A DNA stretch of 64,000 nucleotides, taken from NCBI RefSeq assembly GCF_030770395.1, contig NZ_CP132480.1, positions 4,799,277 through 4,863,276 on the forward strand, given 5' to 3'. The DNA is from Telluria beijingensis (GTDB taxonomy: Bacteria > Pseudomonadota > Gammaproteobacteria > Burkholderiales > Burkholderiaceae_D). Under the pieces are notes generated by a model. The model saw nothing but the letters and a program-made list of their open reading frames with translations, made no database searches and was not told the DNA's origin. The stretch's first letter is position 1. Every line of letters starts with the position of its first letter. Shown piece by piece: positions 48,465 through 63,926 of this stretch. The position numbers were made by a program, and so were the translations under genes.

Positions 48465-49907
48465 TTAACTATCCGACTGCTGGTTACCGCGGGCGCGTTG
48501 CAGGTCGGCCAGCACGGTGCGGGCCGACTGCGGCAAGCCCTTGAGTTCTTCGGGGACCTCGACGCCGAACGACGCCTGCTGCTGCGGCGGATCGAGCTTG
48601 ATCGAGGCGATCGAGGCGCTGACGCGCTCGTTGATCGCGGGATGGCTGCGCAGCACCGGGATCACCAGGCGCCGCACGCGCTCGTTGGCGGTGAGGCGGT
48701 TGACGATGCGGCGCGCCAGGTTCGGGCGGCGCAGCGCGATCGCCAGCGAGCCGGCGGCGCGCAAGGGACGGGTGACCTTCCACGAGGTGCTGGCCAGGGT
48801 CGCCTTGAGGCGCTCGTCGACGCCGCGCGCCCAGTCCGACAGCTGGCGCGCGCTTTCGTGCACGTGGGCCAGCTGTTCCTGCAGCAGGGTGATTTGTTCG
48901 TCAGCGCGCTGCTTTTCTTCTTCGGCGCGGCGGATCTCGCGCGCCAGGGTGTCCTGCTCGGTGCGCAGCGCGATCTCCAGGCGCACACGACGCTCCTCGG
49001 CGTCCTTCGCCTCGGCTTCGGCGTGCGCCGCCAGCGCCTGCAGCCGCGATTCCGATGCCTGCAGCGCCATGTTCTGCGCCACGGCCTGCTGCTCCGCCTT
49101 TGCCGCCAGCGCACGCAGCCGTTCTTCCGACGCCTGCAGCGCTTCTGCCTGCGTCCGCAGCGCTCCTGCCTGCGCCTGCAGCGATTCTTCCTGCGCCTCG
49201 ACGTTGGCCCAGGCACGGTCCAGGTGGTAGGAGATGAAGGCGTCGAACACGTTCGGCTGGATGCCGAAGTGCTGCATCAGTTCAGGGTGTTCCTCGGCCA
49301 CGTACCAGCGATTGAGGCCGTCGAACCAGGCGAAGCGGTAGCCCTGGGTATCGACCAGGTGTTCCCAGCTGGCGTGGTTGGTCTCGCGGCTGTTGGGCAG
49401 CGTAGCCTCGATCACCAGCACCCACGGGCGCCAGCGCTTGAAGTCCATGCCGCGCAGGACGTCGCCTTCGAAACCTTCGACGTCGATCTTCAGGAAGTGG
49501 ACCTCGCCGCGCACGTGTTCCTCGCACACCGAGGCCAGGGTGCGCACCGGCACCTTGAGTTCGGCGACCGTATGGCCTTCGGCGCGGTGCATCTCGGCCA
49601 CGGCCTGGTCGGGCGAGGCCCAGCCGCGCACCTCGGGCACGTCATACAGCGTCAGTTCGCCGTTGTCGGCGCCGGCGGCGATCGCCAGGTTGATGTCGCG
49701 CGGGCGCTGCTCTTCGAACTGCGCATGGAAGGCCGGCAGCGGCTCGATGCTGATGCCGCGCCAGCCGCGCTCGTAGAAGGCCTTGGTGACCGAGTGCTCG
49801 ACCGGGTCGCTGGCGCCGACGTCGATGTAGAAACCGTCGGCGACGTGGCCGAGGGCGCGCCACAGCAGCACGTCCTCGGCGTTCTGGGAATAGGAAACGA
49901 ATGTCAT
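48465..49907 (-). CDS. FkbM-family methyltransferase with coiled-coil C-terminus
   Basis: A 480-residue protein. Residues 1-225 are an FkbM-type SAM methyltransferase: FVSYSQNAEDVLLWRAL, FYIDVGASDPVEHS (motif I) and HFLKIDVEGFEGDVLRGMDF. Residues 240-365 are a long Gln/Ala/Glu coiled coil with heptad-like units (EALQASEERLRALAAKAEQQ). The rest is basic and helical. In ABC-exported O-antigens a methyltransferase with a coiled-coil ruler can cap the chain end and set its length (the WbdD principle); this gene has that architecture and lies next to Wzt. The start ATG 49907 overlaps the wzt stop (ATGA). Confidence 0.87.
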   Translation of the reverse strand: MTFVSYSQNAEDVLLWRALGHVADGFYIDVGASDPVEHSVTKAFYERGWRGISIEPLPAFHAQFEEQRPRDINLAIAAGADNGELTLYDVPEVRGWASPDQAVAEMHRAEGHTVAELKVPVRTLASVCEEHVRGEVHFLKIDVEGFEGDVLRGMDFKRWRPWVLVIEATLPNSRETNHASWEHLVDTQGYRFAWFDGLNRWYVAEEHPELMQHFGIQPNVFDAFISYHLDRAWANVEAQEESLQAQAGALRTQAEALQASEERLRALAAKAEQQAVAQNMALQASESRLQALAAHAEAEAKDAEERRVRLEIALRTEQDTLAREIRRAEEEKQRADEQITLLQEQLAHVHESARQLSDWARGVDERLKATLASTSWKVTRPLRAAGSLAIALRRPNLARRIVNRLTANERVRRLVIPVLRSHPAINERVSASIASIKLDPPQQQASFGVEVPEELKGLPQSARTVLADLQRARGNQQSDS

Positions 49908-51127
49908 GTGCGTTGGATGTCGATGGCCGGGTCGAGCCAGGCCGAACCTTCGAAATGGGGCCGGCGCATATTCATCACGGTGAATACCAGGGCCAGGTCG
50001 CGCCATTCATAGTTGTTGACCAGGTGGGTGTCGGTGCTGACGATGGCGGTGGCGACCGAATAGCTGCCCGGGCCCAGGTTCATCGGGAAGGCGAAGCGGT
50101 AGACCACCTCTTCGCCGGCCGCCACGTCGTCGAGCGGCAGCTGCTTGAGGTGGGTATTGGTGCCGTACATCGGCTGGCCCAGGCGGTCCTTGATCATGTA
50201 GCCGAGCACCATGCGCGGGATCGGGGCGTTAACCTGCACCCGCACCTCGAGGGTGACCGGGCTGCCGACGTCGACCACTTCGACCCGCTCGCCGTGTTCG
50301 TCGAGCAGGGCGATGTCGCTGACGGTGGCTTCGCCGGTGCCGGACACGGTCTGGACCTTGCCATCGGAGGTTTCGCCCTGGCGCACGGTGTCGTTCTCGC
50401 GCTCGGCGATCATGGCGTTGTAGTAGTCCATGATTTCCTCGGGCTTGCCTTCGCGCGCCAGGCGCCCGCCGTCGAGCAGGATGGCGCGGTCGCACACCGA
50501 CTGGATCGCCTGCTTGTCGTGCGAGACCAGCAGCAGGGTGGTGCCCTGTTTCTGGAACTGGCGGATGCGGTCGAAGCTCTTGTGCTGGAAGTAGGCGTCG
50601 CCCACCGACAGCGCCTCGTCGACGATCAGGATATCGGGCCGGCGCGCGGTGGCGACCGAGAACGCGACCCGCATCTGCATGCCGCTCGAGTACACCCGCA
50701 CCGGCTGGTCCATGTAGTCGCCGATGTCGGCGAAGGCCTCGATCTGCGGCATCAGTTCGGTGATCTGCTCGACCGTCATGCCCAGCAGCTGGCCGGCCAT
50801 ATAGGCGTTCTGGCGGCCGGTGAAGTCGGGGTGGAAGCCCATGCCCAGTTCGAGCAGGGCGGCCACGCTGCCATCCATCCAGACGTTGCCGGTGGTGGGT
50901 TGCGTGGTGCCGGTGATCAGCTTGAGCAGCGTGCTCTTGCCCGCGCCGTTGATGCCGATCAGGCCCACGGCCTCGCCCGGCGACACCGTGAAGCTGACGT
51001 CGCGCAGCACCCATTTGAGCGTATGGCGCGGGCCGCCGAACGGCAGCATCCATTCGGCCAGGCGCGACAGCCGGGTCGGATAGGTTTTATAGGCCTTGCC
51101 CAGGTTGGAGACGGTAATCGTGCCCAT
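49904..51127 (-). CDS. wzt: O-antigen/polysaccharide ABC transporter ATPase with Wzt_C domain
   Basis: A 407-residue ATPase. The nucleotide-binding domain has Walker A GINGAGKSTLLKLI, a signature region V-Y-S-S-G-M-Q-M-R, Walker B DILIVDEALSVGD and the switch His in LLLVSHD. Residues 270-405 form a beta-sandwich Wzt_C domain, which in known systems binds the capped end of the polysaccharide. Together with the permease just upstream (1-bp overlap, TGATG) it exports undecaprenyl-linked polysaccharide. The C-terminal specificity domain fits the presence of a cap-adding FkbM methyltransferase immediately downstream. Confidence 0.93.
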   Translation of the reverse strand: MGTITVSNLGKAYKTYPTRLSRLAEWMLPFGGPRHTLKWVLRDVSFTVSPGEAVGLIGINGAGKSTLLKLITGTTQPTTGNVWMDGSVAALLELGMGFHPDFTGRQNAYMAGQLLGMTVEQITELMPQIEAFADIGDYMDQPVRVYSSGMQMRVAFSVATARRPDILIVDEALSVGDAYFQHKSFDRIRQFQKQGTTLLLVSHDKQAIQSVCDRAILLDGGRLAREGKPEEIMDYYNAMIAERENDTVRQGETSDGKVQTVSGTGEATVSDIALLDEHGERVEVVDVGSPVTLEVRVQVNAPIPRMVLGYMIKDRLGQPMYGTNTHLKQLPLDDVAAGEEVVYRFAFPMNLGPGSYSVATAIVSTDTHLVNNYEWRDLALVFTVMNMRRPHFEGSAWLDPAIDIQRT

Positions 51128-51927
51128 CAGAGTTCATCCACCATTTCACCGGCGCGCTTGCGGAACAGGCGCATGCCGAAACCGCACAGCAGCAGCGCCA
51201 GCAGCGCCACCAGGCCGATCCGCTGCCAGTCGGGCGCCGTGCCGTGCACCAGCACCGCCTGGTAGGCTTCGATCAGCGGCACCATCGGGTTCCAGGCCAG
51301 CATGCCGCGGATTTCGTCGGGCAGGATCGAGGCCGGATACACGATCGGGGTCAGCCAGAACCAGAACTGCATCGCGATCGTCACGAACTGGCCGACGTCG
51401 CGGAAAAAGACATTGAGTACGCCGACGATCATGGCCAGGCCGATCGCCAGCAGCACCTGCACCAGCAGCACCGGCAGGATGGCGGCGAACATCAGGCCCG
51501 GGAAATTGCCGGTCGCGACCAGGAAGATCAGGAACAGGCCGAAGATGATGGCGAAGTTGACCAGCGAGCTCAGCACCACGATCACCGGCAGGCAGATGCG
51601 CGGGAAGCTGATCTTCTTGATCACGTTGGCCTGCTCGATGAACATGTTCTGGCCGCGCGCGACGATCTCGGCGAACAGGCCCCAGGTCAGGATTCCGGCG
51701 CACAGGTAGATCGAGTAGGCGAAGCCCGATTCGGCGCCGGGCAGGCGGGTGCGCATGACCTCGGAAAAGATCACGGTGTACACCAGGATCATGGCGAGGG
51801 GACTGAGCACCGACCACAGGGCGCCCAGCATGGCATTGGCGTATTTCGACTGGAATTCGCGTTTGACGCTGCCCAGCACGAAACCGCGGTAGGCCCACAG
51901 GCCGCGCAGCATCAGGGGCGAAATCAT
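51127..51927 (-). CDS. wzm: Polysaccharide ABC transporter permease
   Basis: A 266-residue ABC-2 type permease with six membrane helices. YANAMLGALWSVLSPLAMIL near residue 30, the conserved amphipathic region, and FWFWLTPIVYPASILP near residue 190 match Wzm/TagG/RfbA-type exporters. It forms the membrane channel with the Wzt protein encoded next. First gene of the ten-gene minus-strand operon that runs to 38263; a TATAAT -10 lies about 90 bp upstream. Confidence 0.93.
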   Translation of the reverse strand: MISPLMLRGLWAYRGFVLGSVKREFQSKYANAMLGALWSVLSPLAMILVYTVIFSEVMRTRLPGAESGFAYSIYLCAGILTWGLFAEIVARGQNMFIEQANVIKKISFPRICLPVIVVLSSLVNFAIIFGLFLIFLVATGNFPGLMFAAILPVLLVQVLLAIGLAMIVGVLNVFFRDVGQFVTIAMQFWFWLTPIVYPASILPDEIRGMLAWNPMVPLIEAYQAVLVHGTAPDWQRIGLVALLALLLCGFGMRLFRKRAGEMVDEL

Positions 51928-52106: not shown

Positions 52107-52856
52107 TTATTCACCTTGCACCAGTTTGTCCAGGGCATCCGGCTTGACGATGACCAGGCGATTGGCATCCTTCTGCACGATCCCCTGCTGGACCAGCGCC
52201 GCCAGCGCCCGGGTCACGGTCTCGCGGCTGGTATTGATCATATTGGCAATGTCTTGATGCGTCGGCAGGTTTTCCAGCACCAGCGGCCCGCCGGGCGCGA
52301 CTTGCCGCCGCTCCTGCATCGACAGGTAGGTATAGATGCGCTTGGCCGTATTGTTAATGCTGAGCAGTGCGCGGAATTCGGAATCGCGCTGGATCTTCTG
52401 CGCCAGGTGGCGCAGCATCTGGTTCGCCACAGACGGCGAGTGCGAGAACAGGTGCATCGCGGTCGTGGCCGGCAAGAACGCTACCACCACCGCGGTCAGC
52501 GCCACCACCGAGGCCGAGCGGGTCGAGTTATTGATCAGCGCAATCTCGCCGAAGAAGTCGCCCGGCATCAGCATGCGCAGGCCGATCGCCCGCCCATCCT
52601 CGGTAATGTCGACCACCTGCAATTGGCCGGACAGCAGGAACAGCAGGCCGTCGCCATGTCCACCCTTCTGCAGGACGATCTCGCGCTTGGCATAGTGACG
52701 GAAACGCAACTCCTGCTTGATGGGGACGAGTTCTTCATCGCTGAGGTCGGCCAGCAGCGGAATCTTGCGCAGGTGAACCTGCGCTTCCAGCTTCTTGGGG
52801 ATCAGCGGCGCGTCGGGCGCCGGCGTCATGCTGCCGATGGAGGGGTCTCGGTTCAA
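52107..52856 (-). CDS. Crp/Fnr-family transcription regulator, CRP-like
   Basis: A 249-residue regulator. The cyclic-nucleotide domain (about 25-150) keeps the phosphate-binding cassette: FGEIAL and TRSASV give the Gly-Glu and Arg-Ser pairs that contact cAMP in E. coli CRP. The helix-turn-helix reads PTHQDIANMINTSRETVTRA; the residues R-E-T-V-x-R match the CRP recognition helix that reads TGTGA. There are no N-terminal cysteines, so it is not FNR. The TTG at 52856 is preferred because GAGG precedes it; ATG 52829 is the alternative. It probably forms an operon with VanZ. Three sites fitting its predicted target lie at 57874-61967. Confidence 0.88.
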   Translation of the reverse strand: MNRDPSIGSMTPAPDAPLIPKKLEAQVHLRKIPLLADLSDEELVPIKQELRFRHYAKREIVLQKGGHGDGLLFLLSGQLQVVDITEDGRAIGLRMLMPGDFFGEIALINNSTRSASVVALTAVVVAFLPATTAMHLFSHSPSVANQMLRHLAQKIQRDSEFRALLSINNTAKRIYTYLSMQERRQVAPGGPLVLENLPTHQDIANMINTSRETVTRALAALVQQGIVQKDANRLVIVKPDALDKLVQGE

Positions 52857-54638: not shown

Positions 54639-55901
54639 TCAGCGGTCCTGCCATTGCCAGCTGAGCTGGATCTGGCGGTTATCGTATTGGAAGATCGAGA
54701 TGTTTTCGCGATTGCGCACCAGGCGCGTCTCGAGCCGCAGCCACTGGTTGCGGGCGATCGGCCACGACAGGATGGCGCGCGCGACCCGGGTGTTCTGGTC
54801 GCGCACCGTGTTGATCAGGCCCGGCGCGTAGGCTTCGCTGCTGCGCCAGCTCTGGTAGCTGTACGAGATTTCTCCGCTCACCTCGCCCCACAGGGCGCGC
54901 CGCGCCAGCAGGGTGGTGCTGTAGCCGTGGCGGTCGCCGCCCGGACGCTCGCGCACCGCGTGGTCGGCCTGCCAGCCCTGGTTCAGGCTGGCGTAGACCT
55001 TGTCGCCGCGCCAGCTCAATTGGCCCAGCACGTCGTAGGCATTCGAATCGAAATTGGTGAGCGTCGAATAATCGTTGCGGGTAATCCCGCCCGTGACGTG
55101 CAACTGCATGCGGCTGGGCAGCGGCAACGGCACGCCGGTGCGCGCCAGCAGCTGCAACTGGCGCTGGTACAGCTTGCCGCCCAGGGCGGTGAAACCGACC
55201 ATGCCGGTGGCGCGCACCGGCCAGGCGCCGAAGCGGTACTGGCTGTCGACCCCGGCGTACACCGAATCGCTGTCGTACTGGCGCAGCGAGTCGTTGCGGC
55301 GGCCGAAGTACTGGGCGAAGCCGGACAGGCCATTGGGCGTCAGGTCGCGCGTGTGCTCGACGTTGAGCGCCGTGTAGTTGTCGTGCTTGGGCAGGAACTC
55401 GTCCTGCAGCGGCAATTCGATCTGGCCGCCGTCCTGCTCGACGATGTAGCTCGGGTTGCGCGCGCCCTGGTTGACGTTCATGTCCAGGCCACGCGTCACG
55501 CTGACCGAGGTTGCGCTCAGGGGTTGCCACTCGTCGCAGCCGCTGTCGCGCGCCTCGGCGATCAGTTCCAGGATCGCGCGCGGCGGGTCGAAGCGGGTCT
55601 CGATGATGGCGAACAGGCGCTCGGCCTCGTCGACATGGCCCAGGCTGCACTGCACCAGCGCCACCTCGAGATAGGCGCCGGCGTGTAGCGATTCCTTCTC
55701 GATCACGCGCACCAAGGTGTCCGAAGCGTCGTTCTTGCGGCCTTCGGCGATTGCCTGCAGGGCGTTCTCGTACAGGATCTGCACTTCGTTGGGCGGCGCC
55801 GCGTCCGGCTCCACCGCGCCGGCGCCGGCGCATGCGGCCAGGCAGGCGGCCAGCAGCATCCGGCGCAGGTGGGTGCTCACTGATGGAAATGAAGATCTCA
55901 T
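54639..55901 (-). CDS. Exported TPR plus outer-membrane beta-barrel protein
   Basis: A 420-residue protein. It has a signal peptide (MLLAACLAACAGAGAVE region), two or three TPR-like helices (about 40-115, ENALQAIAEGRKNDASDTL), then about 290 residues of amphipathic strands rich in Tyr, Trp, Gln and Arg, ending in I-Q-L-S-W-Q-W-Q-D-R. This plan matches porin-like proteins with a periplasmic TPR, such as Slam (surface lipoprotein assembly modifier) relatives; that assignment is tentative. ATG 55901 overlaps the cyclase stop (ATGA); a longer in-frame reading to 57611 is a shadow of the cyclase gene. Middle gene of a cyclase-barrel-acyltransferase operon. Confidence 0.72.
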   Translation of the reverse strand: MRSSFPSVSTHLRRMLLAACLAACAGAGAVEPDAAPPNEVQILYENALQAIAEGRKNDASDTLVRVIEKESLHAGAYLEVALVQCSLGHVDEAERLFAIIETRFDPPRAILELIAEARDSGCDEWQPLSATSVSVTRGLDMNVNQGARNPSYIVEQDGGQIELPLQDEFLPKHDNYTALNVEHTRDLTPNGLSGFAQYFGRRNDSLRQYDSDSVYAGVDSQYRFGAWPVRATGMVGFTALGGKLYQRQLQLLARTGVPLPLPSRMQLHVTGGITRNDYSTLTNFDSNAYDVLGQLSWRGDKVYASLNQGWQADHAVRERPGGDRHGYSTTLLARRALWGEVSGEISYSYQSWRSSEAYAPGLINTVRDQNTRVARAILSWPIARNQWLRLETRLVRNRENISIFQYDNRQIQLSWQWQDR

Positions 55902-57766
55902 GCCTGCGGCGCGAAAGTGAACAGGGGTGTGGGCTTGCCTTTGCCGCGCAGGATGCGTTCGCCCAGGGCCAGGAACTGGTGGCGCCGCGCCAGCGCGACG
56001 GTGCCGGGGCCGATGATGGCGCTGTGCGGATAGTCGCGCGCGGCCTGTTCCAGGCGCGACGCGGTGTTGACGCTGTCGCCCACGGCGGTATAGATGCTGC
56101 GGAAGGCGGTACCGAAGTCGCCCGCCATCGCCGGCCCGCTCTCGATGCCGATGCGCACCCGCAGCGGCTTGTAGCCGGCGGCGCTGCGCTGCCGGCTCAG
56201 CTCCTCGACCCGCGCCAGGATCGCGCGCGCGGCGTCCAGCGCCAGGTCGGCGTGGTGGGCTTCGGGCAAGGGCGCGCCCCAGAATGCGACCAGGCCGTCG
56301 CCGGTGTACTTGTCGAGCGTGCCCTGGTGGGCGATCACCGGACCGGTGAGGCAATCGAGGAATGCCTGGGTCAGGCGCGCGGCTTCTTCCACCGGCAGCG
56401 CCTCGACCTGGGTGGTATAGCCTTCCATGTCGGCGATCAGGGTGGTCACTTCGAGCTGGCGCGGCTTGAGCGGATCGATCATGTCGCTGCGCAGCAGCTG
56501 TTGCACCACCGATGGCGCGACGTACTGGCGCAGGGTGTCGAGCAGGTGGCGCGAACGGGCCTGCGCCACCTGCCACTGGTAAGGCACGGCGAACGCCAGC
56601 AGGAACAGGCTGGTGGCCAGCGGTCCGCTGACCGAGAACACCGGATCGTGGGCGCTGGCGAGATAGGCCAGGCCGACCCAGGCTAGCGAGATCAGGCCCA
56701 GCAGGCCGACGCTGGTCAGCGCCGACAGGCGCGGGAAGGCGAACATGGCGAACAGCACCGAGCCGGCCGCGAACAGCAGGGCCAGCGTGGCGCCCGGCCA
56801 GCGCGCGGGGGCCTTGCCCTGCTGGAGGTCGAGCAACTGCGACAGCATCGCCGCCTGCACGCCCAGGCCGGGCCGGTTGCTGCCGAGCGGGGTGGCGACG
56901 CGGTCGCCCTGGCCCAGCGACGACGAACCGATCAGCACCAGGCGTCCGGCGAAATCTTCGCGCGCGTAGGCGCGCTCGAGCACCTCGGCGGCGGTGACCA
57001 CTGTATACGCGCTCCAGTCGCGCCGGAAATCGACCCGGGTCTGCAATGGGCCGTCGATCGCCGGCGCCGGCTGGCCGGAGCAGCAGGCCAGCAGGGCCAG
57101 CGACAGGGCCGGCCAGCGTTTGCCTTCGAACGTGGTCCACAGCGGCAGGCGGCGCAGCACCCCGTCCGGATCGTGCACGAAGCCGATATTGCCGACCTGC
57201 GGCGCGCCGGCCAGGCCAGCATGGTTGGCGATGAAGCCGGTGGCGGGCAGGGCCGCCACCGGGGCGCCGGGCGGCGCGGCAGGCGAGTGGGCCAGCACGC
57301 CCTGGCGCAGGGCGACCGGGCGCTCGCGCATATAGTCGAAGGCGTGGGCCAGCACCACCGGTCCATGGTTGCTCAAGGCCGCCAGCCGGGCATCGCCTTC
57401 GGGGTCGGCGGCGTCCGAGAACAGGATGTCGAGCGCGACCCCGCGCACGGCATAGTCGCCGAGCAGCGTCTCGACCAGGTCGGCGATGCGCGCGCGCGGC
57501 CAGGGCCAGGGGCCGAGCTGGGCGGTGCTGCTCTCGTCGATGTCGACCACCACGATGCGCGGCTCGGGGGCATCGGTGGCGCGCAGCTTGACGAACACGT
57601 CGCGCAGCCATTCACTGCCGAAGGCCGCCGCGCCCGGCTGCGACTGGGCGTATACGCACAGCAGGAAGGCGAGCAGCGAGATACAGGCCTGCACCGCGCC
57701 GCGGCGCAGGCGCGGCAGGCGCAGGCTCGAAGATGGAGGGAAGGCGGGCACGCTCGGTGTGGTCAA
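55898..57766 (-). CDS. CHASE2-domain adenylate/guanylate cyclase
   Basis: A 622-residue class III cyclase. It has an N-terminal membrane segment (about 25-42) and a periplasmic CHASE2 domain (about 45-320; IVVVDIDESSTAQLGPWPWP is typical). Three closely spaced membrane helices (about 328-405) follow, then a cytoplasmic cyclase domain (about 430-620) with metal Asp in TLIADMEGYT and YTGDGLVAFW, and G-D-S-V-N-T-A-S-R-L-E near the end. It turns a periplasmic signal into cAMP or cGMP; base specificity cannot be assigned safely. It heads an operon with the beta-barrel and acyltransferase genes and is divergent from fecR. Confidence 0.9.
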   Translation of the reverse strand: MTTPSVPAFPPSSSLRLPRLRRGAVQACISLLAFLLCVYAQSQPGAAAFGSEWLRDVFVKLRATDAPEPRIVVVDIDESSTAQLGPWPWPRARIADLVETLLGDYAVRGVALDILFSDAADPEGDARLAALSNHGPVVLAHAFDYMRERPVALRQGVLAHSPAAPPGAPVAALPATGFIANHAGLAGAPQVGNIGFVHDPDGVLRRLPLWTTFEGKRWPALSLALLACCSGQPAPAIDGPLQTRVDFRRDWSAYTVVTAAEVLERAYAREDFAGRLVLIGSSSLGQGDRVATPLGSNRPGLGVQAAMLSQLLDLQQGKAPARWPGATLALLFAAGSVLFAMFAFPRLSALTSVGLLGLISLAWVGLAYLASAHDPVFSVSGPLATSLFLLAFAVPYQWQVAQARSRHLLDTLRQYVAPSVVQQLLRSDMIDPLKPRQLEVTTLIADMEGYTTQVEALPVEEAARLTQAFLDCLTGPVIAHQGTLDKYTGDGLVAFWGAPLPEAHHADLALDAARAILARVEELSRQRSAAGYKPLRVRIGIESGPAMAGDFGTAFRSIYTAVGDSVNTASRLEQAARDYPHSAIIGPGTVALARRHQFLALGERILRGKGKPTPLFTFAPQA

Positions 57767-57873: not shown

Positions 57874-57917
57874 TGTGACCGTCGTCACGTCCAGCCGACT
57901 CGGATGCGACAGATAAT
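57874..57917 (+). promoter_or_regulatory. CRP-type site and -10 box upstream of fecR
   Basis: TGTGACCGTCGTCACG (57874-57889) matches TGTGA-N6-TCACA in nine of ten fixed positions. GATAAT (57912-57917) follows after 22 bp, the class II activator geometry. The fecR start codon is 23 bp further on, with GGAGGGA as ribosome binding site. Confidence 0.65.
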
Positions 57918-57940
57918 CGCGAAGATGGAGGGAAAGTAAT

Positions 57941-59407
57941 ATGCGGCGGTTAATTATTCTTGCGAGTATGACATTGATGGCTTCCGCCGTACAGGCGGCC
58001 GAGGCTGGCAAGGTCATCTTTGTTGCGGGCGCAGCACAGGTTGTGGATCGCAAGGCGGCGGAAGGCGATGCCGTGCAAGAAGGCGAACTGCTGCAGACCG
58101 GCGCCGACGGCTTTATCTATGTGAAGACGACCGATAACGGCCTGTTCATCCTCCGTCCGAATACGAAAGCGCGCATCGTCGCTTACCACATCGACAAGGC
58201 CAACCCGGAAAACACCCGCGTCAAGCTGGAGTTGATCAGCGGCGTGGCGCGCAGCAAGTCGGGCGACGAGGTCAAGCGCGCGCGCCAGAACTTCCGTTTC
58301 AATACGCCGGTCGCGGCCATCGGCGTGCGCGGCACCGATTTCACCGTGTTTACCGACGATACGACGTCGCGCGTGTCGGTGCTGTCGGGCGGCATCGTGG
58401 TGAGCGGCTTTGGCGATACCTGCCGTCCGGATGGCGGCGGGCCGTGCGAAGGTGCGCGTAGCCGCGAGCTGTCGGCGGCGCAGCGTGGGCAGTTGCTGCA
58501 GATCCAGCAGGGTGCCGCGGCGCCGCAGTTGCTGAATGGGACCAGCGTGGTGCCGGAGGCGCATGTGCTACCGGCTGGCGCGCCAGTGGCGGCGGTACGT
58601 AATGGCCCAGTGACCCAGGTCGAAATGAATGTTGATGTCAAAAAGAGCGAGCAACTGGTCGACAACGTGATCAATAAGCCGAGGCCGACGCCGACGCCGG
58701 ATTCCGGGACGAATCCAAATCCAGCGCCGGGCCAGGATCCGAATCCGGCCCCGCCGACAAATCCGGAACCGCCGCAACCAGAGCCGTCGCAGCCGGAACC
58801 GTCGCAGCCAGAACCGCCGCAGCCAGAACCGCCGGTAGTGACGCCGGTCGATCCAGTCCCGCCGGAACCCGTACGGCACGCGGGAATCCAGTGGGGCCGC
58901 TGGCAGCGCGTCACGGGACCAGCCCCCGACTTCAACCTGACCCTGGAAGGAGCCAAGCACCAACTGGTAGCTGTGAAAGGCAATTTCGCGATCTTCCGTA
59001 CCGCGGGACAGGAGTATGTCGTGCCAGAGCGTGGCGGCATGGGATTCAAGCTGGCGGGTAGTGAAGCCTATATCTACACCTATTACACACCTACGGGGGG
59101 GCTGTACACGCCAACGGCGGCAACGCTGTCGAATGGCGAATTGAATGTCGATTTCGGCAGAAGGAGCTTCACGACTTCGTTCGACCTGTCCAGCAAGGAT
59201 GAAAAATTCAATTTCCGGGGCGATGGTACGCTGGGTGCCGATGGCACACTCTATGGCAACCGGGCGGAGGGGCGCCCAGGACTGATCACCGTGGATGGCC
59301 TGTTGTCCAACGACAAGGGGGGCGGTGCCGCTTATATCTTCGACGGCAGGATCGATGAGCGGCGTACCGTCAATGGTGGTACTTCCTGGTTGCCCGAGTC
59401 CCGATAG
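57941..59407 (+). CDS. FecR-domain exported protein
   Basis: A 488-residue periplasmic or surface protein with a signal peptide ending SAVQAAE. Residues 25-160 are a FecR domain (GKVIFVAGAAQVVDRKA, then FNTPVAAIGVRGTDF, the hallmark). A Pro-rich linker (about 245-300) consists of short repeats of the type Q-P-E-P-S. The C-terminal 180 residues form a beta-rich domain (FNLTLEGAKHQLV...). It lacks the cytoplasmic anti-sigma part of the FecR iron regulator, so it is probably a structural or sensor FecR protein. It faces the CHASE2 cyclase, a pairing that suggests it feeds the cyclase input (inference). GGAGGGA precedes the ATG. Confidence 0.87.
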   Translation: MRRLIILASMTLMASAVQAAEAGKVIFVAGAAQVVDRKAAEGDAVQEGELLQTGADGFIYVKTTDNGLFILRPNTKARIVAYHIDKANPENTRVKLELISGVARSKSGDEVKRARQNFRFNTPVAAIGVRGTDFTVFTDDTTSRVSVLSGGIVVSGFGDTCRPDGGGPCEGARSRELSAAQRGQLLQIQQGAAAPQLLNGTSVVPEAHVLPAGAPVAAVRNGPVTQVEMNVDVKKSEQLVDNVINKPRPTPTPDSGTNPNPAPGQDPNPAPPTNPEPPQPEPSQPEPSQPEPPQPEPPVVTPVDPVPPEPVRHAGIQWGRWQRVTGPAPDFNLTLEGAKHQLVAVKGNFAIFRTAGQEYVVPERGGMGFKLAGSEAYIYTYYTPTGGLYTPTAATLSNGELNVDFGRRSFTTSFDLSSKDEKFNFRGDGTLGADGTLYGNRAEGRPGLITVDGLLSNDKGGGAAYIFDGRIDERRTVNGGTSWLPESR

Positions 59408-59449
59408 CAACAACGATTCAGTTCCCTCGCTACTGCAGAGTTCAATAAT

Positions 59450-59477
59450 AAGGCACTGTTAAACGCAGTGCCTTTTT
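59450..59477 (+). terminator. Rho-independent terminator of fecR
   Basis: AAGGCACTG, loop TTAAACG, CAGTGCCTT followed by TTT: a perfect 9-bp stem ending about 65 bp after the fecR stop codon. Confidence 0.88.
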
Positions 59478-59749
59478 CATTCGCCATATGGTTCTAATAT
59501 CGTTTCCCTACACGAATTCATCTGCTCTGCCGTTGATAGAATTGGTGAGTATTTAACGTCGAACGTTACTGCCATTTTGTTTCAATTTGTAAGTCACGAA
59601 GTTTCATCGAATCGTCGGAATTTGTCGCGATTCGGACCATACGTACCTGTCGCCAGAGGGAAAAGGGGGTGATTCTTGATTTACATTGGCGCTTCTCGGA
59701 TAATAACCCGCCGAAATTCCGGATTCCTGATAGAAATACTGGGTTTCAA

Positions 59750-59792
59750 TGTGATGGCTGTCACATTAACTCGATTTGTGTTCTGTCATGAT
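59750..59792 (+). promoter_or_regulatory. Perfect CRP-type site and -10 box upstream of the DUF4214 gene
   Basis: TGTGATGGCTGTCACA (59750-59765) is a perfect TGTGA-N6-TCACA palindrome. CATGAT (59787-59792) begins 21 bp later, placing the site centre about 41 bp before the predicted transcript start (class II). The start codon is at 59879 behind AGGAG. Confidence 0.75.
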
Positions 59793-59878
59793 GCGGTTCG
59801 TTGGAGCTGCAGGACACCTCAAGTGAGACTGCAATCGACTTAAATCTTGATCATTTTCGATCTATACAGGAGCTTTAC

Positions 59879-61849
59879 ATGGCAACCCAGTACGACAACG
59901 CAATCCAGCAGCTGTACGTGGCTTACTTCAACCGTCCTGCTGATGCATCGGGCATCACCTTCTGGGCGAATGCAATGGCCAATGGCGTGACCACCGCGCA
60001 AATCTCGGCTGCTTTCGCTGCCTCGGCTGAATACCAGACCGAATACAGCCAAACCACCTACACCGGCGTCGTGACCCAGGTGTACGACAACCTGTTCGGC
60101 CGCGCTCCGGATGCAACCGGCTTGGCATTCTGGGTCAAAGCCCTGAACGACAAGACCCTGACCATCGACAACGTCGTCGATTTCATCGCTCGCGGCGCGC
60201 AAGGCACCGACGCAGCCGCCATCGCTGCCAAAGTCAAGGTCGCTACCGCCTTCACCAACGCGCTGGACACTGACGCTGAAAAAGCTGGCTACAACGGCAC
60301 CGAAGCTAACGATGCTGCCAAAGCCCTGCTGTCGACCATCAAGACCGATGCACAAGCAACCGCTGCAATCGTTCCAGCAACCCTGGACGCAAGCGTCGCT
60401 GCCGTGATCAAAGCTGGCACCCCGTTCACCCTGGAAGCTGGCCTGGCCTCGCTGGCTGCCGCTGAGAAAGCAATCACCGACTTCCTGGCTGACGTCGAAA
60501 TCGTTGATGAGAACGGCGACGAAATCGAAGACGTCGATGCTGACGCAATCGAAGCCAACGTCGGTATGGCTGACGAGATGGTCGGCGAACTGATCACCGT
60601 CGGCACCTACGCTGGCGCACGTGACAGCGTGAAAGTTGCTCTGATCGCTGAACAGCAAGCTCAGAACGCTGAAGACCTGGAAGAAGCCAACGAAACCCTG
60701 GCTGACGCACGTGCTGAAGTCGCCAAGGTCTCGGGCCTGGGCAATGCCATCGCTGCCGCTACCTCGGCTGAAGAAGCTGTTGGCGAAGCAGAAGAAGCTG
60801 CGGCAACCGCTGACGCAGCCCTGGCTGGCGCACTCGGTTCGTTCCGCTCGCTGAACAGCGCGAAAGGCACCATCACCGTTGTTGACGGCACCATCGTACT
60901 GGCACCTACCCCAACCACCGAAACGCCTGCTCCTGCTCCAGTCACCCTGGCTGCAATCGACGAAGAAGACGGCGTGTGGGTCGTTGACGAAGACGTCACC
61001 GCTTCGAACTACCCTGGCCTGGCCGCTGTGATCACCGCTGGCAATGCACAGCTGGTGGCGGCTGCTGAAGTCTCGGAAGCCGAAGACAACCTGCTGTTCG
61101 CTCAGATCGAAGTCGAGTACCGCGATCGTGACGCGACCGGCACCGCCGCTCTGCGCGCACTGGTGACCGATGGCTTCCTGGGCGACGTGACCGTGCCGAG
61201 CAGCGGCACCCCGACCATCGCTAACCTGCGTGACCAGCTGGCTGCCCTGCAAGGCGAAGGCGATGCTGACGCGATCCAGGACTACAAAGACGCACTGCAG
61301 AACTTCCTGGATGTGAACACCTCGAACCTGGCTGACGACGTCGCTGAGGCTGACGAAGCCATCAACGGCGACGAAGGCGTGCAGGCTCGTATCGATGCAC
61401 TGGCTGACGCAGTCGAGTACCTGGAAGCCGCCAAGGCCCTGGAAACCGAACTGGCATCGCTGATCGAAGCACGTGACGCTGCTCTGGCTGACTTCGAAGA
61501 CAACGACTACCTCGAGCCAGTGATGCTGGACGCTAACAAATTCGGCACCACCGGTTCGGACATCTTCGTCTTCGACGGCGAAGCAGTCTCGATCAGCGCC
61601 TTCGGCCGCTCGGGCGATGACGTCCTGTTCGTTGGTTCGGGCTTTACCCTGAACGAAGGTGACACCGACGACGGCGATAACGCTGTTCTGGAAGTGTTCT
61701 TCAACCAGCGTGGTAACAACGCCGAGATCATCATCGAAACCGAAGCATACGGTTCGGATCTGGCAGCTGGCGCTGGCGTCAAGGTCATCACCCTGACCGG
61801 CGTGAACGTCGAAGACCTGACCTTCGAAAACGGCATCATCACCCTGTAA
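59879..61849 (+). CDS. Acidic Ala-rich DUF4214 protein, probable type I secreted/surface protein
   Basis: A 656-residue protein with no Cys and no signal peptide. The N-terminus holds two DUF4214 units (about 8-55, AIQQLYVAYFNRPADASG; 58-110, VTQVYDNLFGRAPDATG). The middle is Ala/Glu/Asp-rich and helical (about 190-560). The C-terminal 100 residues are beta-rich, opening FGTTGSDIFVFDGEAVSISA, as in RTX-type secretion ends, and finish N-G-I-I-T-L. Codon use differs sharply from neighbours (GCT, CGT, GAA and GCA instead of GC-ending codons), as in very highly expressed genes. It has its own CRP-type promoter, AGGAG and terminator. The exporter genes follow directly. Possibly an S-layer-like or abundant secreted protein. 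Confidence 0.85.
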   Translation: MATQYDNAIQQLYVAYFNRPADASGITFWANAMANGVTTAQISAAFAASAEYQTEYSQTTYTGVVTQVYDNLFGRAPDATGLAFWVKALNDKTLTIDNVVDFIARGAQGTDAAAIAAKVKVATAFTNALDTDAEKAGYNGTEANDAAKALLSTIKTDAQATAAIVPATLDASVAAVIKAGTPFTLEAGLASLAAAEKAITDFLADVEIVDENGDEIEDVDADAIEANVGMADEMVGELITVGTYAGARDSVKVALIAEQQAQNAEDLEEANETLADARAEVAKVSGLGNAIAAATSAEEAVGEAEEAAATADAALAGALGSFRSLNSAKGTITVVDGTIVLAPTPTTETPAPAPVTLAAIDEEDGVWVVDEDVTASNYPGLAAVITAGNAQLVAAAEVSEAEDNLLFAQIEVEYRDRDATGTAALRALVTDGFLGDVTVPSSGTPTIANLRDQLAALQGEGDADAIQDYKDALQNFLDVNTSNLADDVAEADEAINGDEGVQARIDALADAVEYLEAAKALETELASLIEARDAALADFEDNDYLEPVMLDANKFGTTGSDIFVFDGEAVSISAFGRSGDDVLFVGSGFTLNEGDTDDGDNAVLEVFFNQRGNNAEIIIETEAYGSDLAAGAGVKVITLTGVNVEDLTFENGIITL

Positions 61850-61896
61850 TGATCCGCTGAGAAGGCGCCCGTGGCCAGCCTCTGGCCGCAAGCGAC

Positions 61897-61931
61897 AAAA
61901 ACCCCGCAACCCCGGTTGCGGGGTTTTTTTT
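61897..61931 (+). terminator. Strong Rho-independent terminator of the DUF4214 gene
   Basis: CCCCGCAAC (61902-61910) pairs with GTTGCGGGG (61915-61923), followed by eight Ts. It separates the DUF4214 transcript from the exporter genes. Confidence 0.93.
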
Positions 61932-61951
61932 CGCATGGAAACGACAGATTG

Positions 61952-61992
61952 TGTGATCGGCATCACATATTTCGAAGGTTATGCCTCATAAT
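61952..61992 (+). promoter_or_regulatory. Perfect CRP-type site and -10 box upstream of the type I exporter
   Basis: TGTGATCGGCATCACA (61952-61967) is a perfect TGTGA-N6-TCACA palindrome. CATAAT (61987-61992) begins 19 bp later, close to class II spacing. The exporter gene starts about 50 bp beyond the predicted transcript start. Confidence 0.75.
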
Positions 61993-62048: not shown

Positions 62049-63926
62049 ATGTCGTTTCCAGTCTTAGATATGAAAAATAACTTCTCCAAGCCGAAGAACG
62101 AAATCACCGAGGCGTTGCAGATCTTCAAGAAGACCTTCATCACCATCGGCGTGTTCAGCGCGATCACGAATATGCTGGCGTTGGTCCCGTCGCTGTACAT
62201 GATGCAGGTCTACGACCGCGTCTTGGCCAGCCAGAACGAGCTGACCCTTGCCATGCTGACGGTCCTGATGCTAGGCGCCTACCTCATGCTGGCTTCGCTC
62301 GAAATGATCCGCTCCTTCGTGCTGGTGCGCGTCGGCAACCGCTTCGACATGATGATGAACAAGCGCGTGTACACGGCGGCTTTCCAGCAGAACCTGAAGA
62401 CCTCGGGCGCCAACGCCGGCCAGGCGATGTCCGACCTGACCAACGTGCGCCAGTTCCTGACCGGCAATGCGCTGTTCGCCTTCTTCGACGCGCCGTGGTT
62501 CCCGATTTACCTGGCGATCATCTTCTTCTTCCAGGTACCGCTGGGCTTCTTCGCCCTGGGCGGTACCCTGGTCCTGATCGTGCTGGCCGTGGTCAACGAA
62601 CGCATCACTCGCAAGCCGCTGGCCGAAGCCAACGCGCTGTCGGTCGAAGCCAACACGATGGCTACCAACAACCTGCGCAATGCCGAGGTCATCGAATCGA
62701 TGGGCATGCTGCCCAACCTGATGAGCCGCTGGTTCAAGGTCCACAGCAAGTTCCTGGGCCTGCAGGCCAATGCCAGCAACAAGGCTGGCATGATCAATGC
62801 CGGCACCAAGTTCACCCAGCTGTCGCTGCAATCGCTGGTGCTCGGCCTCGGCGCGCTGCTGGTCATCGAACACAAGATGTCGGCCGGCATGATGATCGCG
62901 GCCTCGATCCTGGTCGGCCGCGCCATGCAGCCGGTGCAGCAGGTAATCGGCGCCTGGAAGAGCGTGGGCAGCACCCGCAGCGCCTATGGCCGCCTGGTCG
63001 CGATCCTGGAAGCGAATCCGAAGCGCGAAACCGGCATGTCGCTGCCCAAGCCGCGCGGCGCCCTGACGGTCGAAGGCGTTACCGCCTCGCCGCCGGGCGT
63101 CAAGGCGCCGGTGGTGCGCAACGTCAGCTTCGGCCTCGAGCCAGGCGACGTGCTGGGGGTGGTGGGTCCGAGCGGTTCGGGCAAGTCGACCCTGGCGCGC
63201 CTGCTGATCGGCATCTGGCCGGCAATGATGGGCAAGGTGCGCCTGGACGGCGCCGACATCTATCAATGGAACAAGGCCGAGCTCGGCCCGCACATCGGCT
63301 ACCTGCCGCAGTCGATCGAGTTGTTCGCCGGCACCGTGTCCGAGAACATCGCGCGCTTCGGCGACGTCGATGCTGAAAAAGTGGTGACCGCCGCCCAGCG
63401 CGCCGGCGTGCACGAGATGATCCTGCACCTGCCGGAAGGCTACGACACCAAGCTGGGCGACGGCGGCGCAGGCCTGTCCGGCGGCCAGCGCCAGCGCCTG
63501 GCGCTGGCCCGCGCCATGTACGACGATCCGGCGCTGATCGTGCTCGACGAGCCGAATTCCAACCTCGACGAAGTCGGCGAAGCCGCCCTGGTGAAGGCCG
63601 TGCTCGAGCTGCGCCAGCGCGGCAAGACGATCGTGCTGATCACCCACCGCCAGGCGGCGCTGAACGCGACCACCAAGCTGCTCATGATGCGCGACGGCGC
63701 GGTGGCGGCCTTCGGCCCGACCCAGAAGGTGCTGGAAGCGATCAACGAAGCCAACCAGAAACAGATCCAGGCGCAGAAGGCGGCGCTCGCGGCCAAGGGC
63801 CAGGCGATGCTGGCCAAGCAGCAGGCCCAGGCGCAGGCTAAACCACAGCCACAGCCACAGCCACCGGCGCCGGCGCCGGAAGCGCAGGGCAACGATACTT
63901 CCGCGACCACGGAACAGGGACAGTAA
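62049..63926 (+). CDS. Type I secretion system permease/ATPase
   Basis: A 625-residue ABC exporter of the PrtD/HlyB-like type without a peptidase domain. Six membrane helices lie in residues 25-310; SLYMMQVYDRVLASQNELTL is characteristic of the PrtD class. The ATPase domain has Walker A GPSGSGKSTLARLL (about 375), signature LSGGQRQRLALARAM, Walker B LIVLDEPNSNLD and switch His in LITHR. The C-terminus is a Gln/Ala/Pro-rich tail. It drives one-step export of C-terminally signalled proteins, most likely the DUF4214 protein just upstream. No clear ribosome binding site; ATG 62070 is an alternative start. A HlyD-type gene begins 5 bp after its stop. Confidence 0.92.
   Translation: MSFPVLDMKNNFSKPKNEITEALQIFKKTFITIGVFSAITNMLALVPSLYMMQVYDRVLASQNELTLAMLTVLMLGAYLMLASLEMIRSFVLVRVGNRFDMMMNKRVYTAAFQQNLKTSGANAGQAMSDLTNVRQFLTGNALFAFFDAPWFPIYLAIIFFFQVPLGFFALGGTLVLIVLAVVNERITRKPLAEANALSVEANTMATNNLRNAEVIESMGMLPNLMSRWFKVHSKFLGLQANASNKAGMINAGTKFTQLSLQSLVLGLGALLVIEHKMSAGMMIAASILVGRAMQPVQQVIGAWKSVGSTRSAYGRLVAILEANPKRETGMSLPKPRGALTVEGVTASPPGVKAPVVRNVSFGLEPGDVLGVVGPSGSGKSTLARLLIGIWPAMMGKVRLDGADIYQWNKAELGPHIGYLPQSIELFAGTVSENIARFGDVDAEKVVTAAQRAGVHEMILHLPEGYDTKLGDGGAGLSGGQRQRLALARAMYDDPALIVLDEPNSNLDEVGEAALVKAVLELRQRGKTIVLITHRQAALNATTKLLMMRDGAVAAFGPTQKVLEAINEANQKQIQAQKAALAAKGQAMLAKQQAQAQAKPQPQPQPPAPAPEAQGNDTSATTEQGQ

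Follow-up and report, generated by a model that had tools for sequence, protein, structure and literature searches.

The stretch analysed here (the window: 64,000 nucleotides of contig NZ_CP132480.1, assembly GCF_030770395.1, positions 4,799,277 to 4,863,276) comes from Telluria beijingensis and carries a locus encoding a class III adenylate cyclase with a CHASE2 sensor domain, a probable outer-membrane protein, a regulator of the CRP family, a FecR-domain protein, a DUF4214 protein and the ABC component of a type I secretion exporter (Table 1). A CRP-type site, TGTGA-N6-TCACA, stands in front of each of the last three genes, and an earlier note, made from the sequence alone, had proposed that these promoters form one regulon responding to a cyclic nucleotide. 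The wiring of the FecR, DUF4214 and exporter genes under one such motif is well supported, both by conservation of the sites in related loci and by co-occurrence of site and regulator in 31 of 32 genomes if the cyclase-bearing ones are counted as carrying the regulator, as described below.

Table 1. Features of the locus, numbered from the first letter of the window.
Feature	Position	Strand	Remarks
CRP-type site, FecR promoter	57874-57889	+	TGTGA-N6-TCACG; one mismatch, the last base
CRP-type site, DUF4214 promoter	59750-59765	+	perfect TGTGA-N6-TCACA
CRP-type site, exporter promoter	61952-61967	+	perfect TGTGA-N6-TCACA
-10-like hexamer GATAAT, FecR	57912-57917	+	22 bp past the site; 30.5 bp from the site centre
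-10-like hexamer CATGAT, DUF4214	59787-59792	+	21 bp past the site; 29.5 bp from the site centre
-10-like hexamer CATAAT, exporter	61987-61992	+	19 bp past the site; 27.5 bp from the site centre
Terminator-like hairpin and T run	about 61897-61931	+	between the DUF4214 and exporter genes; -28.1 kcal/mol, z -6.2
CRP-family regulator	52107-52829	-	cNMP_binding PF00027, 76.1 bits; HTH_Crp_2 PF13545, 55.8 bits; start codon inferred
TPR-like N-terminus and probable beta-barrel outer-membrane protein	54639-55901	-	start overlaps the cyclase stop (ATGA)
CHASE2 class III adenylate cyclase	55898-57766	-	PF05226 (CHASE2) and PF00211 (Guanylate_cyc)
FecR-domain protein, probably periplasmic	57941-59407	+	PF04773, E 2.7e-11; orthologs in 47 loci
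DUF4214 protein, presumed type I secretion substrate	59879-61849	+	PF13946; 656 amino acids, isoelectric point (pI) about 4, no Cys
Type I secretion ABC exporter, PrtD type	62049-63926	+	TIGR01842, 747.9 bits

A scan of the whole window returned the three sites with the coordinates and mismatch counts given in the earlier note, and no further match to the pattern with one mismatch or fewer. The window taken alone is weak evidence for the sites, because at least three such matches were also reached in 7 of 100 shuffles of it. Each site is followed by a -10-like hexamer, chosen as the best match within 23.5-36.5 bp of the site centre; if the hexamers occupy positions -12 to -7 of the predicted start sites, the site centres fall at -42.5 (FecR), -41.5 (DUF4214) and -39.5 (exporter). 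By sequence, this is the layout of a class II promoter, i.e. a site centred near -41.5 combined with a -10 hexamer, and the earlier assignment of that layout to the GATAAT, CATGAT and CATAAT boxes is borne out in relatives as well as in the window. With regard to the promoter INDEPENDENCE, the strong terminator-like hairpin between the DUF4214 and ABC genes suggests that the exporter genes probably need a promoter of their own, and the third CRP-type site sits where such a promoter would be expected.

Within the genome as a whole (G000; one contig of 6,017,275 bases, with the reversed pattern as control) the perfect motif is found in two places, both of them the perfect sites of this locus, compared to none for the control. 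The genome scan that the earlier note had called for thus places both perfect copies of a 6.02 Mb genome here, and simple arithmetic gives a chance of about 4 per million that two randomly placed sites would both land in a given 12 kb. Allowing one mismatch yields 22 places vs 24 for the control, so that at this stringency nothing points to a larger regulon; the proposed single regulon accordingly stands as shared motif wiring of three promoters, and its extension to a global CRP regulon is unsupported. Thirteen of the 19 other one-mismatch places were inspected, and ten of the 13 lie within stop-to-stop frames of at least 198 amino acids. A candidate fourth target, the perfect palindrome TGTGAAACGTGTCACA, occurs in identical form in three relatives (G011, G045 and G075, at L082:4949, L083:4956 and L084:5037) and is also listed for a fourth that was not fetched (G052); it stands just upstream of a small membrane-protein gene, which we take to be YggT-like. 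The perfect pattern is absent outside the locus in G000, and the palindrome was set aside as unrelated.

Conservation was assessed in loci retrieved by a search with the cyclase. Of the 54 obtained, 49 (L026-L072, L076 and L077) from Massilia, Duganella, Pseudoduganella, Rugamonas and related metagenome-assembled genomes, all Oxalobacteraceae, were scanned, and five with 28-32% identity (L073-L075, L078 and L079) were left out. These 49 loci contain 104 perfect sites in 1.0 Mb, of which 100 stand before a FecR, DUF4214 or ABC gene as located by tblastn; the other four (L029:8114, L031:8021, L042:167 and L067:199) are at places fitting missed genes or copies cut at the end of a stretch. FecR rows were obtained from 47 loci, DUF4214 rows from 44 and ABC rows from 39, the window bringing these to 48, 45 and 40. 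A site with at most one mismatch is present at the FecR promoter in 48/48 rows (18 perfect, with the mismatch at the last base in 29 of the other 30), and a perfect site at the DUF4214 promoter in 44/45 and at the exporter promoter in 40/40, so that the motif proves to be conserved in related genomes, as the earlier note had asked to be checked. The single DUF4214 row that falls short, from L029, scores three mismatches because the tblastn match is not the gene adjoining the site; the perfect site itself is present at L029:8114. Sites are absent from L060 and L077, of which L077 covers the locus on one side only, whereas L060 gave neither a FecR nor an ABC match.

The spacing of the -10-like hexamers is likewise maintained. 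At the exporter promoter the hexamer lies 27.5 bp from the site centre in 38/40 rows, and in 39/40 it matches five or six of six bases; the corresponding distances are 29.5-31.5 bp in 41/45 DUF4214 rows and 28.5-31.5 bp in 48/48 FecR rows, placing the site centres over all rows at about -39.5 to -43.5 under the same assignment of the hexamer, consistent with the class II layout. Because the hexamer is the best-matching one in a range, the values for FecR and DUF4214 carry some bias; for the exporter, a choice of this kind would not easily explain the spacing. The sites are conserved while their flanks vary.

A survey of 116 genomes of the family permitted comparison of the distributions of site, cyclase and regulator. 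The cyclase, counted at E <=1e-60, occurs in 26 of these, all with at least one perfect site; together they hold 80 perfect sites, 55 of which share a contig with the cyclase and lie no more than 15 kb from it, against 12 matches genome-wide for the reversed control. The 90 genomes lacking the cyclase contain 106 perfect sites, spread over 51 of them, vs 57 control matches. Exporter orthologs (at least 63% identity) were found in 34 of the 116 genomes, 24 with a close cyclase and ten without, and exclusion of two in which the exporter is cut by a contig end (G009 and G046) left 32 evaluable. Close upstream of the exporter, 27 of these have a perfect site, two a site with one mismatch (G058 and G019), one a site with two mismatches (G070) and two none (G040 and G090). 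Of the ten genomes with no close cyclase, five (G012, G027, G053, G060 and G115) have a CRP homolog (E <=1e-25), each together with a perfect site, and at that threshold no such homolog was found in the site-less G040, G070 and G090, in G046 (cut) or in G065. Four evaluable relatives have thus retained the exporter with no CRP homolog found, and three of them also lack the site; loss of the motif from relatives that retain the genes, which the earlier note had named as evidence against its proposal, is seen mainly where the regulator itself was not found. The 23 evaluable cyclase-bearing genomes were not searched separately for CRP; if they are counted as CRP-bearing, site and regulator co-occur in 31 of the 32 exporter-bearing genomes. 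Weaker cyclase homologs (E <=1e-10) exist in eight of the ten, G070 and G090 having none and G040 a single partial match (34%). As a negative control, exporter paralogs of 41-45% identity (seven matches in four genomes) were considered, and none of the five upstream stretches fetched contains a site with two or fewer mismatches.

More distant versions of the locus occur in G060, G027 and G115, where identities to the proteins of the window are 40-42% for CRP, 40-42% for FecR, 29-36% for the cyclase and 24-26% for the outer-membrane protein. A perfect site lies about 130 bp before the DUF4214 match in G060 and G115; G027 has a one-mismatch site near a contig end and no DUF4214 match. In G053 and G012 the exporter is preceded by two tandem perfect sites. 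The CRP homologs of G053, G012, G027, G060 and G115 combine RETVSR with FGEL...RSAS, and that of G068 combines RETVSR with CGEL...RSAS. A SapC-family gene, S-layer related to judge by its name, adjoins the CRP homolog of G053 (L086:1007-2622), some 4 kb away from the exporter that has the tandem sites.

The regulator is the likeliest candidate to read these sites. Escherichia coli CRP binds cyclic AMP (cAMP) through its phosphate cassette and TGTGA through an R-E-T-V-x-R helix, with class II sites centred at about -41, and the corresponding residues quoted in the earlier note (FGEIAL, TRSASV and RETVTR) are all present in the protein encoded here; the start that it had given, 52856, is not a start codon, the likely start being an ATG at about 52829. 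Domain matches confirmed both this protein and the cyclase as members of the families to which they had been assigned. All 49 orthologs, that of L060 among them, have the recognition helix RETVTR, of the R-E-x-x-x-R type, and cassette residues E104, R113 and S114 are invariant in them. The protein is CRP-like and not filed as an equivalog of E. coli CRP, scoring 73.2 bits against model NF008732, below the cut-off of 266. The genome encodes ten PF00027 proteins, of which only this one has R-E-T-V-x-R: to go by family signatures, three of the other nine have presumably FNR-like helices (L006-L008), one has no DNA-binding part (L003), two seem to be enzyme fusions (L009 and L010), and three have other helices (L005, L011 and L012). 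In the window and in many related loci the CRP gene is adjoined by a Wzt-type polysaccharide ABC exporter (49904-51927 in the window).

The cyclase is the sole match to PF00211, the class III family, in the genome, where the class I family PF01295 has no match, and its best match in the PDB is an adenylate cyclase (1wc1). Residues D446, K486 and D490 are retained in 48/48 rows with letters at these positions, and T560, N567 and R571 in 49/49; we take these to be the two metal-binding aspartates, the substrate-contacting pair K486/T560 and the catalytic asparagine and arginine of class III cyclases. A Lys/Thr pair in this class indicates ATP as substrate, and since the cyclase has this pair of adenylate cyclases, cAMP is, of the two messengers allowed by the earlier note, favoured over cyclic GMP (cGMP). 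The assignment of the adjoining gene as an outer-membrane protein involves a weak TPR match and a barrel judged by eye, there being no barrel family match in Pfam. That the FecR-side site also controls the cyclase is unsupported, as the region upstream of the cyclase does not have the class II layout relative to that site. Between this site and the cyclase start, many relatives (L026-L070) share a TTACA-like...TTTGTAGCAA element followed farther down by a TATACT hexamer (by eye), and this combination suggests that another regulator controls the cyclase.

The FecR protein, probably periplasmic, has a signal-peptide-like start and a Pro-rich linker, both judged by eye. The DUF4214 protein ranges from 651 to 1748 amino acids among the loci, with a pI of 4.05-4.53, and is Cys-free in 46/46 rows, the window included; L060 (311 amino acids) and L029 (532 amino acids) were omitted from these rows, as their matches differ from the gene beside the site. 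Its length differs widely between species (L026-L076) while its promoter stays conserved. HlyD (HlyD_3) and OEP genes follow the ABC gene beyond the window (in L081), completing a type I secretion set of PrtD-type ABC protein, HlyD adaptor and outer-membrane channel, and the DUF4214 protein, whose gene adjoins the exporter genes and shares their motif, is the presumed substrate of this pump. A second DUF4214 protein, of 1645 amino acids with RTX repeats and an Ig-like domain, is encoded after the exporter genes just beyond the window (L081:5365-10302). An exported surface coat is the reading of these outputs that we prefer.

We consider it likely that the locus constitutes a self-contained cAMP circuit of CHASE2 cyclase, local CRP and three class II promoters, which drive a FecR protein, a surface protein and its exporter; from its motif distribution this looks like a private local circuit of three promoters rather than part of a global regulon. 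An envelope signal would cause the CHASE2 adenylate cyclase to make cAMP, which would load the CRP-family protein encoded 3 kb farther along, and the loaded protein would bind one site at each of the three promoters and recruit RNA polymerase by class II activation. The circuit would yield FecR in the periplasm, the acidic DUF4214 protein, either secreted or at the surface, and a type I exporter (ABC, HlyD and a TolC-like channel). FecR proteins are trans-envelope partners in known systems, and as FecR is both a likely target here and a partner of this kind, it would probably feed back on, or tune, CHASE2 or the outer-membrane partner.

Several observations weigh against this circuit, or against its being private. 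Because the cyclase served to select the main set of loci, the conservation is conditional on it, and L060 retains cyclase and CRP yet has no site with one mismatch or fewer. Twenty-five of the 80 perfect sites in cyclase-bearing genomes lie elsewhere than near the cyclase (four of them, in G013, G087, G098 and G108, directly precede an exporter gene on another contig), and in G001 five more perfect sites lie well away from the locus. In G065 the exporter still has its perfect site although no CRP homolog was found in that genome, which is 86% complete. As to other sources of cAMP, the search of the T. beijingensis genome was confined to cyclase classes I and III, without II, IV, V and VI. Finally, the position hand-aligned to Thr127 of CAP is Asp in 48/49 orthologs, next to a Ser128 position that is Ser in 49/49, and this Asp could alter the choice of ligand or its contacts.

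The last point is an argument for a circuit in which the local CRP controls the three promoters in response to cGMP, another nucleotide or no ligand at all. There is a precedent in Clr of Sinorhizobium meliloti, which, according to the available part of the source, binds and responds to both cAMP and cGMP and has TT at the C-helix Thr127/Ser128 positions (PMC10127613). We nevertheless regard a ligand other than cAMP as unlikely, given the invariant Glu, Arg and Ser of the cassette, the adenylate-type K486/T560 of the adjoining cyclase, and the presence, by eye, of other residues in place of the Asp in distant homologs (Ser in G053, G012, G027 and G060; Ala in G115 and G068). That CRP might instead act as a repressor, released or engaged by cAMP, is conceivable in that a site with its centre close to -41 covers part of the -35 region and could keep polymerase out; the spacing conserved at the exporter promoter is that of a class II activator, with the site replacing the -35 element, and we think repression rather improbable.

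The existence of ten cNMP-domain proteins in the genome raises the question of whether another CRP/FNR-family member reads the sites. This seems very unlikely, as none of the other nine has the R-E-T-V-x-R helix and loss of the site tracks absence of the local CRP in three of the four genomes where this could be evaluated. That the palindromes arose by chance, or are conserved for some other reason, would be compatible with the frequency of three matches in shuffled windows, but is contradicted by conservation of the sites amid variable flanks and by the confinement to this locus of the only two perfect copies in the genome; we attach almost no weight to this explanation.

Comparison with E. 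coli CRP shows agreement in the class II arrangement of TGTGA-N6-TCACA centred at about -41, in the R-E-T-V-x-R helix and in the cAMP cassette. Unlike E. coli CRP, the regulator described here has only three promoters found for it, all near its own gene, is accompanied by a class III rather than a class I cyclase, and has Asp at the Thr127 position. On the output side, the S-layer systems RsaADEF of Caulobacter and Sap of Campylobacter are type I exported, and the present locus resembles these in placing a type I exporter beside an acidic, Cys-free protein of variable length, with a Wzt-type exporter nearby and SapC in L086; it differs in the protein family, and an S-layer here is a candidate suggested by composition. 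To our knowledge, cAMP control is not known for either RsaADEF or Sap.

The closest known system is the CHASE2 cyclase/NsrA/Clr pathway of S. meliloti. In the portions of the literature available to us, that cAMP pathway comprises CHASE2 cyclases (CyaD1, CyaD2 and CyaK), the outer-membrane barrel NsrA and Clr (PMC13001267; PMC7529298), and the Clr target smc02177 (SMc02177) encodes a FecR-domain protein (PMC5498481). Both systems thus combine a CHASE2 cyclase, a CRP-like regulator and a FecR-domain target, the last assigned here by its site only; the probable outer-membrane barrel protein of the present locus, judged by eye, may correspond to the NsrA partner. On the evidence of the same passages, the Clr box is of the TGTT-N8-AACA type as opposed to TGTGA-N6-TCACA, S. 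meliloti has a larger regulon and 28 class III cyclases, and neither a type I exporter nor a DUF4214 target is mentioned. The excerpt available for a Burkholderia biofilm operon describes a FecR-domain protein encoded beside a CHASE2 histidine kinase (PMC5192318), the same sensor pairing with a two-component system rather than cAMP as its output. A literature search covering few subscription papers found no paper connecting a circuit of this kind with type I secretion or DUF4214.

A broader proposition, which we advance tentatively and would put at somewhat below even chances, is that cAMP serves as a private messenger in these Oxalobacteraceae, with one cyclase, one receptor, three promoters and one exported coat, FecR reporting the state of the coat or of its export via the outer-membrane protein and CHASE2. 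Textbooks present cAMP-CRP as the global regulator; the sequence of this locus points to a private circuit of few promoters, with cyclase, receptor and targets within about 15 kb, and this soil bacterium seems to keep one cAMP switch mainly for one job, namely a surface protein and its export pump. Such a locus may offer a compact setting for learning which signal CHASE2 detects and what role its FecR partner plays, and would provide a regulatory handle on DUF4214 surface proteins.

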